From the IMG/VR virus record IMGVR_UViG_3300015194_000014, positions 1 to 20,937 of that record: DNA of 20,937 bases; one strand, given 5' to 3'. Below the pieces are notes generated by a model. It made no database searches. It was not told where the DNA came from and worked only from the letters and a program-made list of their open reading frames with translations. Positions 4,947 through 20,937 of this stretch are shown one piece after another (the stretch's first letter is position 1; every line of letters begins with the position of its first letter). Made by a program: the position numbers and the translations under genes. The DNA comes from a virus.

Positions 4947-5096
4947 TTATTTTCCTTTTGAAACCATCTTCGCTGCTTTTGAAACTAAAGAGATATTTTT
5001 AAAATTACCTACTGAATTTTGAGGGCCTACCGATTTCGCTGATTTCTCACCCGAATCGGATACCTTACCACTTCCACCACACGCTGAACATTTCAT
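4947..5096 (-). CDS. Small protein with DnaJ-like CxxCGGxGK half-motif (49 aa)
   Basis: 49 residues starting MKCSACGGSGKVSDSG. CxxCGGSGK is one half of a DnaJ-type zinc-binding repeat; a single half-site would need a partner molecule or is a structural echo. The rest is Ser/Lys-rich and looks flexible. A good Shine-Dalgarno (AGGAG) lies 8 nt upstream, and the start overlaps the stop of the 215-aa virion-type gene by one base (TAATG). Position in the late operon suggests a minor virion or assembly role, but this is only inference from context. Confidence 0.55.
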   Translation of the reverse strand: MKCSACGGSGKVSDSGEKSAKSVGPQNSVGNFKNISLVSKAAKMVSKGK

Positions 5097-5743
5097 TAAC
5101 CGACTCCTATAAGACAAAGATTTTTTACTGTTGCTGAAATAGCTGGTTTAATAGCCACCATAAAGGTGCGCCAATCGTCAGTAGCAGCGACCTGTACATC
5201 CAAAGTATTAGCACCGACCGGGGTTTTTGGTCCACCATAAAAACCGCAGTTTGAACTCCCAATAGGGCCGATAGTGCCACTATTTGACGGGACGGGAATG
5301 TACCCTGTTTGAGTAATTGCCACCATGAAGAGCCAAGAGTTATCTACGCTGGTGGTAATACTAGTCGGAATATTTGTGTTTGGCGGAACTCCAGTAGAAT
5401 CTACAAATCCAGTTTGTGAAGGTATAATCCCATCGGTGCCAAACAACGACATGCTGCCGCCAAAAAAAACAAAGTAGGGTAGGGTGGCTGTAATAACTAT
5501 ATTATTCGTGCCTGTCGAAGGATTTGCAAGGTAATAGATAAAAGCTGCTCGTCCCGTTGTAAACAACTTAATACCGACCCGTGTCATTGCGACGCCGTTG
5601 TACTTCACGCTGGCAATTCTATCAGCATTTTGATTTAGGTAACCAACAACATATAAACTACTTCCAGCAGCACAAGTATGTGACCAAGTAGTTGTTAGAC
5701 CGGACCCAGAACCAGAACTTGTACTATCGAGTGTAATCGCCAT
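5096..5743 (-). CDS. Beta-rich virion-type protein (215 aa), possible decoration or tail-associated protein
   Basis: The sequence follows a pattern common in phage structural genes: Ser/Gly/Thr-rich start, WSHTCAAGSSLYVVGYLNQN, then SVKYNGVAMTRVG, YYLANPSTGTNNIVIT, SMSLFGTDG, and a final WRTFMVAIKPA. These alternating hydrophobic/polar segments with NPSTG and KPA signatures suggest a beta-sandwich domain seen in minor or decorative virion proteins. No signal peptide or catalytic motif is visible. The start overlaps the end of the upstream gene by 20 bp. It could equally be a receptor-binding or head decoration protein; the sequence does not decide. Confidence 0.5.
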   Translation of the reverse strand: MAITLDSTSSGSGSGLTTTWSHTCAAGSSLYVVGYLNQNADRIASVKYNGVAMTRVGIKLFTTGRAAFIYYLANPSTGTNNIVITATLPYFVFFGGSMSLFGTDGIIPSQTGFVDSTGVPPNTNIPTSITTSVDNSWLFMVAITQTGYIPVPSNSGTIGPIGSSNCGFYGGPKTPVGANTLDVQVAATDDWRTFMVAIKPAISATVKNLCLIGVG

Positions 5744-19423: not shown

Positions 19424-19933
19424 ATGCCAAAACTGCATATACCCTTCACTGATAATAAATATATTATCTTTGATGAAGAGGATTCCAGTGTAATCGCAAA
19501 ATTAAAGATTTTTATGGGCGGGACACTTGAGCATGAATCAGTTATGTGTTCTGAAAACTCTGATAGGAAACCAATGATTACTCTAGGCCGATATATGCTT
19601 GGGTTAAAAATTGGTGATGAATTAGAGTGTGACCATAAAGATAGGAATATCTTTAATTTTAAGAGGGATAACCTTAGAATAGCTACTAGAATGCAACAAC
19701 TTGCTAATAGAGGTATCTACGGCAATAATACTAGTGGTTATAAGGGGGTTATTTGGCATAAACAGAACAAATGTTGGAGGGTTCGTGTAAATCAAAACGG
19801 GATAACTAAATACGATCAGTGTTTTAATAATAAAGAAACTGCTGCAAGAGCTTATGATAAAGCAGCGAAGCGTATTTTTGGGGAATTCGCAGTATTAAAT
19901 TTTCCAGAAATTTCTGATAATGCTGTCAATTAA
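19424..19933 (+). CDS. HNH homing endonuclease with AP2 DNA-binding domain
   Basis: 169 residues. The HNH part is LECDHKDRNIFNFKRDNLRI (68-86), with D70-H71 and N83 in the usual positions; the AP2 domain follows from SGYKGVIWHKQNKCWRVRV (104-) to GEFAVLNFP (to about 161). HNH-AP2 proteins are free-standing mobile endonucleases common in phages; they cut DNA at or near their insertion site to spread. This gene is more AT-rich than the neighbours, consistent with recent arrival. It lies directly after the frameshifted gene. Start ATG has AAAGGAAACGACTAAT in front. There is no sign of an intron. Confidence 0.85.
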   Translation: MPKLHIPFTDNKYIIFDEEDSSVIAKLKIFMGGTLEHESVMCSENSDRKPMITLGRYMLGLKIGDELECDHKDRNIFNFKRDNLRIATRMQQLANRGIYGNNTSGYKGVIWHKQNKCWRVRVNQNGITKYDQCFNNKETAARAYDKAAKRIFGEFAVLNFPEISDNAVN

Positions 19934-19957: not shown

Positions 19958-20404
19958 TTGCCGATTATTTCATTTACCGATTCAGACAAACTTGCCGCAG
20001 TTGTAGTTGACGCGGGTTATTACAAAGCCGTGGTCAAATCAATTGATATGAAGGCGTCCAAATCGGAAAGCTCGACGAATTTCTGGACCGAAATCGAACT
20101 CACCGAAGGGAAGAATAAGGGTAAGGAATTGAAAGTTACGTTCAATACCAAAACCTCTAGCAATTCCATCCTTGGTGATATGCAGCTTCGGCCGTATTCC
20201 GATATGCTTATGCTTTATGCAGCTATCTTCGGGCTGGAATTGGAAGCAGTTCCGCTTCAGTTCGATACGGATGAAATGCTCATGAAGGAATTCGATTTGC
20301 AGGTTCTTAATACACCGACTGAAAATGGTGGAGGTATTATGAATTCAACCGGAGTATTCCTCCCGGCCGGAAAAGCATCTTCGGCGGCTGGCGTGACGTT
20401 CTAA
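19958..20404 (+). CDS. Putative ssDNA-binding/DUF669-like protein (148 aa), TTG start
   Basis: 148 residues from a TTG at 19958 with AGAGGA 7 nt upstream. VDAGYYKAVVKSIDMKASKS, then STNFWTEIELTEGKNKGKEL and KVTFNTKT resemble the OB-like beta barrel pattern of DUF669/phage SSB proteins, which usually sit beside ATPase and helicase genes. The tail is GKASSAAGVTF; it lacks the acidic tip of bacterial SSB. It would coat ssDNA in replication or recombination. The gene is GC-richer than the endonuclease before it. A structured element follows directly after its stop. Confidence 0.45.
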   Translation: MPIISFTDSDKLAAVVVDAGYYKAVVKSIDMKASKSESSTNFWTEIELTEGKNKGKELKVTFNTKTSSNSILGDMQLRPYSDMLMLYAAIFGLELEAVPLQFDTDEMLMKEFDLQVLNTPTENGGGIMNSTGVFLPAGKASSAAGVTF

Positions 20405-20409
20405 ATTTT

Positions 20410-20488
20410 TGGCGCGCTCCCGAAAAGGGCAATTAAGCAATATCGGAAGATGAGGGCTAGCTGGCTTACTTAATTTTCCGACGCGCCA
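20410..20488 (+). ncRNA. Pseudoknotted RNA candidate (79 nt)
   Basis: Three perfect helices share one continuous 3' strand (20469-20488). S1: TGGCGCG (20410-20416) with CGCGCCA (20482-20488). S2: AATTAAG (20431-20437) with CTTAATT (20469-20475). S3: TCGGAA (20443-20448) with TTCCGA (20476-20481). S2 and S3 cross, so they form an H-type pseudoknot, closed by S1. A small CCC-GAAAA-GGG hairpin (20419-20429) sits between S1 and S2. The 3' strand is paired without a gap over 20 nt. A short T-run follows (20491-20495). It lies between the SSB-like gene and a 75-aa gene whose Shine-Dalgarno is 13 nt beyond it. I do not match it to a known riboswitch or ribozyme. Confidence 0.6.
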
Positions 20489-20510
20489 GATTTTTAAAAT
20501 GAGGAGAAAT

Positions 20511-20738
20511 ATGAAACTCATCTATCAATGGCTATCCAAATATTATGGCCCACCAGAAACAAAGGCATTGCATCGTATTATTGATATGCTTAGAACTGAA
20601 AATAAAATTATTAACAAACGGTTTAAAGAAACTGAAGTGCAAATGTGGCAATACTTTAAAGAAAGAAATTTGGCTCAGCGAGAAATTAATGAATTAAATG
20701 CTTCATTAGAGGTAAGGGTCAGAAAGGCTGATTTTTAA
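20511..20738 (+). CDS. Small helical, probably coiled-coil protein (75 aa)
   Basis: 75 residues starting MKLIYQWLSKYYGPPETKAL, then largely helical with Lys/Glu heptad-like spacing (TENKIINKRFKETEVQMWQY). Start ATG at 20511 has GAGGAG 7 nt upstream; an ATG at 20499 inside this site is not preferred. The structured RNA element precedes it. Stop directly abuts the next start (TAA-ATG). No family recognised. Confidence 0.6.
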   Translation: MKLIYQWLSKYYGPPETKALHRIIDMLRTENKIINKRFKETEVQMWQYFKERNLAQREINELNASLEVRVRKADF

Positions 20739-20937
20739 ATGTTCACAGTTTCCGGCCATGGTGCGTCAAATCCAGCAATTTTATTCGTAGGGGATTACCC
20801 TGTCGGGAGCGATCTTCAATCGGGTTATGCGCTTTCTGGCTACTCTGGTAATACAATTAAAAATTCCCTTGCTGACGTAGGCTTAAATATTTCGATGGCT
20901 TTTCGGACTCTGCTCATAAAGGATGAGTACCGGGAAA
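20739..20937 (+). CDS. Uracil-DNA-glycosylase-like protein or UDG-domain fusion (3' end cut by window edge)
   Basis: 66 residues are visible. NPAILFVGDYPVGSDLQSGY, then ALSGYSGNTIKNSLADVGL, follows the family 4-type UDG pattern (hydrophobic strand ending in GE/DxP, then small-residue G-x-PLSG-like region and a helix). Such domains occur alone or fused to the N-terminus of phage family-A DNA polymerases. The residues following (NISMAFRTLLIK) fit either. Start immediately follows the upstream stop (TAA-ATG). The C-terminal part is outside the window, so the fusion question cannot be answered here. Confidence 0.6.
   Translation, partial: MFTVSGHGASNPAILFVGDYPVGSDLQSGYALSGYSGNTIKNSLADVGLNISMAFRTLLIKDEYRE

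Follow-up and report, generated by a model that had tools for sequence, protein, structure and literature searches.

What is the short segment that lies between an SSB-like gene and a UDG-type DNA polymerase gene in an uncultured phage, and does it act as a structured RNA? The segment belongs to a 20.9-kb virus record from IMG/VR, taken here over its whole length of 20,937 nucleotides (the window), and a sequence-only reading had described it as a candidate compact pseudoknotted RNA in which three perfect helices share one 3' strand.

Results

The features of the locus are as follows, with S1 corresponding to the closing stem P1 and the core of S3 to P3.

19958 to 20404, plus strand: SSB-like gene, Pfam DUF669 (148 aa, TTG start; PF05037 at 23.1 bits against a cut-off of 21; homologues in relatives).
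20408 to 20490, plus strand: whole RNA element, 83 nt, the smallest of nine copies (single descriptor match in the window; eight other phage groups have a homologue at this locus).
20408 to 20416, plus strand: P1 (S1) 5' strand, UUUGGCGCG, whose inner CGCG is invariant in the family (covariation).
20419 to 20429, plus strand: optional linker hairpin CCC-GAAAA-GGG (MFE folds).
20431 to 20437, plus strand: S2 5' arm AAUUAAG, claimed pseudoknot arm (nested-ensemble pair probability 0; shuffle p 0.12-0.21 in the window).
20443 to 20446, plus strand: P3 (S3 core) 5' strand UCGG, within the conserved AUCGGA (invariant in 9/9 copies).
20443 to 20451, plus strand: 5' arm of a window-specific extension of P3 to 9 bp, UCGGAAGAU, pairing with 20473-20481 (pair probabilities 0.58-1.0).
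20469 to 20475, plus strand: S2 3' arm CUUAAUU (nested-ensemble pair probability 0).
20473 to 20481, plus strand: extended P3, 3' arm, AUUUUCCGA (MFE fold, pair probabilities).
20478 to 20481, plus strand: 3' strand of P3, CCGA, directly adjoining the P1 3' strand (unchanged in eight copies; L251 has CCGG, which still pairs, through U-G).
20482 to 20490, plus strand: P1 (S1) 3' strand, CGCGCCAGA (covariation, pair table).
20491 to 20495, plus strand: U5 run directly after P1, terminator-like (P1 ends at 20490).
20499 to 20738, plus strand: ORF 3' of the element, 79 aa from 20499 or 75 aa from 20511.
20739 to 20937, plus strand: first part of the UDG-type DNA polymerase gene, which runs off the contig end (46% identity to residues 2-62 of the 808-aa UDG-polymerase of L044).

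The DUF669 SSB-like gene ends at 20404, and the element begins 3 nt past its stop codon. The ORF that follows it matched no family above cut-off in a Pfam search (sub-threshold matches only) and is unlike the ORFs that follow the element in other phages, and the Pfam UDG score of the polymerase start stays below its cut-off. Several further observations concern this neighborhood. Just 5' of the SSB-like gene, 19424-19933 encodes an HNH endonuclease that carries an AP2-like domain (phrog_99; PF00847 below cut-off), and none is seen at the corresponding place in L044, the closest relative. The TTG start of the SSB-like gene at 19958 has GAGGAAAA upstream, and the closest relative has ATG at the same residue, its protein beginning MPII. 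The hexamer ATTTTT is present on both flanks of the RNA element, for which a target duplication of a mobile element was considered.

The three helices reported in the sequence-only reading are indeed present. S1 (20410-20416/20482-20488), S2 (20431-20437/20469-20475) and S3 (20443-20448/20476-20481) are perfect, their 3' arms are contiguous over 20469-20488, and S2 and S3 cross; S1 furthermore lengthens through U-A and U-G pairs to 20408-20416/20482-20490. This arrangement had been called very unlikely to be chance, too strong a verdict if only the topology is considered: sets of three perfect helices with at least 20 bp in total on one contiguous 3' strand numbered 312 in 2738 Markov-random 20.9-kb sequences, a chance rate of about 0.11 per window (roughly 6e-4 per 106-nt gap), and as such the topology is by itself suggestive and not decisive. 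It is because of the comparative evidence given below, rather than the topology, that the element is not attributable to chance. In comparison with shuffled sequences, the nested fold shows a moderate gain in stability (z -2.4 and 2/200 for 106 nt; z -2.8 and 0/200 for 83 nt), and the MFE fold consists of S1, S3 lengthened to 9 bp and the small CCC-GAAAA-GGG hairpin, without S2.

The fate of S2 bears directly upon the proposed H-type pseudoknot, and here the comparison speaks against the earlier claim. S2 is without a significant counterpart in seven of the eight copies tested, window included, while the core of S3 is kept; the 7-bp S2 is found only in the window among the copies compared, and the exception is L254, where roughly the same regions form an 8-bp pairing (p = 0.01 versus shuffles). 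In the window, the outer three pairs of the extended S3 (20449-20451/20473-20475) take up part of the S2 3' arm, and the best nested fold with S2 stands at -23.5 kcal/mol versus -30.7 kcal/mol for the MFE (7 kcal/mol worse), S2 adding about 1 kcal/mol on top of S1. These values are for nested structures only, and since a nested calculation cannot represent a true pseudoknot, they bear solely on the competition between S2 and the extended P3. On geometric grounds, stacking S2 upon S3 would require 5 nt to bridge about 13 bp, since 5 nt is all that separates the 5' arms and the 3' arms are directly joined. Given the absence of conservation, the competition with P3 and its energies, the zero-length 3' loop and the 5-nt 5' linker, the pseudoknot is unlikely, and S2 is probably not a functional helix. 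The competing GAAAA/TTTTC pairing, from which a switch had been thought possible, is present at 20422-20426/20474-20478, and no evidence was found for any switch.

Searching the phage collection at the DNA level with this region of the window gave no match. A terminase search led to 29 related viral loci and an alignment search with the Sak4-type ATPase to 32 loci of the replication region; the SSB gene of these relatives was located by profile, and the gap on its 3' side was inspected. The design of the element was seen in L233/L034, L245, L247, L249, L252 and L254, and later in L250 and L251, making nine distinct copies with the window, the other eight from uncultured phages (IMG/VR). All relatives are metagenomic. 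A tblastn search with Sak4 gave no match in cultured phages, and terminase and polymerase searches of cultured phages gave remote relatives only. One further sequence, the G010 copy (L244 5530-5561, GCCGCG..CCGACGCGGC), has the locus and CCGACGCGGC in common with the others but is without UCGG, and was excluded from the nine. A degenerate DNA pattern applied to viral contigs lacked selectivity, returning many G+C-rich matches of which none was linked to the locus, and both matches from a pattern search of genome contigs lay inside coding sequence and were rejected.

In each copy the element follows a common order: P1, a CGAAUAA-like linker in most copies, sometimes a hairpin, AUCGGA, a variable hairpin stretch, and (C)CACCGA abutting the P1 3' strand. 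P1 is a closing stem of 7-10 bp in which the inner CGCG/CGCG is invariant and the outer pairs vary, with one internal mismatch in L245. The linker of the window departs from CGAAUAA (CUCCCGA), and the linker hairpin, which appears as UCAUC-GAAA-GAUGA in L034 and CCUG..CAGG in L252 and is absent from L247, L250 and L254, is not conserved in sequence.

Because MAFFT misaligned the full-length copies, pairs were counted on collapsed cores, whose boundaries around P1 and P3 were set by eye. In eight aligned cores, 5 of the 9 P1 pairs and 20 cells changed on both sides, and the covariation score was 0.423 versus 0.107 for shuffled and at most 0.152 for slid alignments; leaving out the window and including L251 gave 0.415 versus 0.122. 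S3 survives as the 4-bp UCGG/CCGA core of P3, which pairs in every copy (9/9) and stacks on P1. Being invariant save for the U-G that replaces U-A in L251, P3 gains no support from covariation and is therefore backed by constancy. A hairpin just 5' of CCGA (P4, UGG..CCA) occurs in the eight other copies, individually weak (p 0.02-0.32), and is absent in the window, which extends P3; it was not treated as family-defining. Variation in P1 favors G-U pairs over A-C mismatches, 5 to 1 (small numbers), and fits a plus-strand RNA transcribed in the same direction as the genes. When the window was left out of the covariance model (collapsed loops), the model gave it a non-significant score of 8.6 bits (E 2) and also missed most of the loci from which it had been made, probably because collapsed loops penalize insertions; a model on collapsed cores is insensitive to copies with long linkers.

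A family descriptor (P1 of at least 7 bp with CGCG/CGCG, AUCGGA in the 5' part, and CCGA or CCGG abutting P1 on the 3' side) has one match in the window, at 20408-20490. Among 26,887 shuffled windows it matched 3 times, and its matches in 1.45 Mb of relatives (both strands) all lie at the SSB-polymerase locus. As the descriptor was composed after the copies had been seen, the shuffles gauge rarity and are not an independent test, and the locus specificity is the stronger point. The window gave no match at the gathering threshold of Rfam 15, in keeping with the earlier statement that no known riboswitch or ribozyme could be recognized; Rfam scans of the relatives that carry the element gave nothing at the element, and scans at permissive settings, run on the window, L250 and L247, yielded chance-level matches or none. 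No description of the element was found in the open-access literature searched.

All nine copies, like the one in the window, sit 3' of a DUF669 SSB-like gene and 5' of a UDG-type polymerase gene; in L250 and L251 a small ORF intervenes. The T4 gene 32 autoregulatory pseudoknot, in contrast, lies 5' of its phage SSB gene; both RNAs are associated with a phage SSB, but in the element the knot is also unconserved. The copies begin 3-32 nt past the stop codon of the preceding ORF, and in most the next start codon falls within about 40 nt. By eye, the ORFs that follow look unrelated between phages. The earlier suggestion of a cis-regulator of the 75-aa and UDG-like genes is accordingly kept in part: a cis element is favored, but because the downstream ORFs differ it belongs to the SSB-polymerase interval and is not tied to one downstream gene.

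A run of four or more U adjoins the 3' end of P1 in seven of the nine copies (absent in L250 and L254) against a background of 6.2% per position, for which the binomial value of 1e-7 overstates independence, the copies being related. A scan for simple terminators found none at the element in the window, and the earlier view that it is not a simple terminator holds: there is no loop of 3-8 nt, and P1 in the window encloses 65 nt. In three copies, UUUUAAAAU lies directly 3' of P1 (window 20491-20501, L247 about 5003-5015, L252 about 5572-5582), overlapping or adjoining a start codon.

Other structured RNAs were seen in the same gap. A second type combines a closing stem with a hairpin that contains a nearly constant AAUAYACAAAUAG, and its stem sequences differ in each phage (L242 3927-4040, on the same contig as L097; L244 5516-5690; L248 3843-3960; L243 4758-4950), and has no Rfam match. 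A third type has UAACACU..UAAAU..AGGCAUC in common together with the closing strand UAGCAGCC (L239 4932-5070, L240 5113-5240, L246 5114-5260 and possibly L274 1330-1460), and lies directly 5' of the next start codon in L239 and L240. In L236 (5066-5400), the SSB gene is followed by a non-coding gap of about 330 nt with a very stable predicted fold (about -67 kcal/mol for the first 200 nt), and the related phage contig L057 carries two tRNA genes at 592-763 (Rfam 64.8 and 59.2 bits).

Discussion

On the comparison of sequences, we conclude that the element is a real, so far undescribed RNA family that recurs in at least eight other uncultured phages. Our preferred reading of its role, tentative and somewhat short of an even chance, is that it may be a cis-acting intergenic mRNA segment, terminator-like at its base, that separates expression of SSB from that of the polymerase genes. 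Upon transcription the core would fold, and P1 would close directly before the U-run; P1 and the U-run could then act as a partial, possibly regulated, transcription terminator or 3'-end barrier, such that much of the SSB mRNA would end or be protected at the element and fewer transcripts would reach the polymerase. As P1 begins a few nucleotides past the upstream stop codon, a ribosome finishing the upstream ORF may delay P1, and coupling to translation is possible. The terminator-like role is favored by the nine copies at one locus, the strong covariation of the outer P1 pairs (0.42 versus at most 0.15 in slid controls), the locus-specific descriptor, the U-runs in seven of nine copies and the G-U bias on the plus strand. 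Like an intrinsic (Rho-independent) terminator, the element has in those copies a G+C-rich stem followed by a U-run; unlike one, its stem closes a structured, partly conserved domain of roughly 64-135 nt, far above the standard terminator loop, and two copies are without the run. Furthermore, the conserved CGAAUAA, AUCGGA and CCACCGA are needless for a plain terminator, and the structured RNAs of other phages in the same interval are mostly without a U-run.

These conserved unpaired letters suggest more than a plain terminator, possibly a bound ligand or protein, or catalysis. It is conceivable, if doubtful, that the element is a sensing RNA, riboswitch-like or an autoregulatory operator bound for example by the SSB-like protein, whose core would decide the formation of P1 and so control its neighbors. 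The clustering of the conserved letters at the P1/P3 junction, as in binding pockets, and the U-run directly 3' of P1 would both suit such a device, but downstream genes that are unrelated between phages would be unusual for a metabolite riboswitch.

A self-cleaving ribozyme or processing site, cutting the polycistronic mRNA between the SSB and polymerase genes, is unlikely. The compact stem-junction, in which conserved letters flank P1 on either side, and the diversity of structured RNAs in the interval would be compatible with it, and known ribozymes are enriched near phage genes (PMC10085705). However, no Rfam ribozyme model matches, the comparison reveals no cleavage site, and U-runs would not be expected; the passages of PMC10085705 consulted on permuted hammerheads suggest no match.

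Less likely again is a structure that acts in single-stranded DNA, as a replication origin, an SSB-loading site or a nuclease site. The element does sit among replication genes, and a role of this kind has also been considered for STAXI, a motif found near SSB genes (PMC2864571), but P1 prefers G-U over A-C on the plus strand, small as the numbers are, and mRNA better accommodates both the U-run and the close spacing between ORFs that run in the same direction. STAXI (Rfam; Weinberg et al. 2010, PMC2864571), a pseudoknot in two or three tandem repeats with frequent UUCG loops, is the nearest known system in setting, being likewise a candidate structure near SSB and other DNA-manipulation genes that could act either as RNA or as single-stranded DNA; the element differs in its single unit, its CGCG closing stem, its lack of a conserved pseudoknot and of an Rfam match. 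The L17 downstream element (PMC2864571) is similarly a conserved structured RNA of 3'-UTR type after one gene and before the next, whereas the present element is found in phages after an SSB-like gene, the resemblance having been checked by Rfam scan only.

Last, a pseudoknot or switch formed by S2 and S3 is very improbable, for although S2 in the window is a perfect 7 bp contiguous with S3 and L254 has its 8-bp pairing, the other seven copies tested, window included, offer no significant counterpart, and competition from the extended P3, the 7 kcal/mol deficit and the poor loop geometry weigh against it.

Returning to the terminator-like segment, the company it keeps allows a broader, speculative suggestion, which we hold with no great confidence: in this large group of uncultured phages, the SSB-polymerase gap might be a docking site for interchangeable RNA devices, with at least three structurally different conserved RNAs (the CGCG-stem, AAUAYACAAAUAG-hairpin and UAACACU..UAGCAGCC types) controlling the SSB-to-polymerase balance, possibly through sensing of a ligand or protein or through self-cleavage. 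What began as a curiosity in a single sequence is now a testable family with nine aligned copies, an orphan RNA family with covariation support and a fixed place in the replication operon of phages known from metagenomes only. Should the element prove to be a regulated terminator or switch, this would account for how one transcript yields abundant SSB but little polymerase in these phages.
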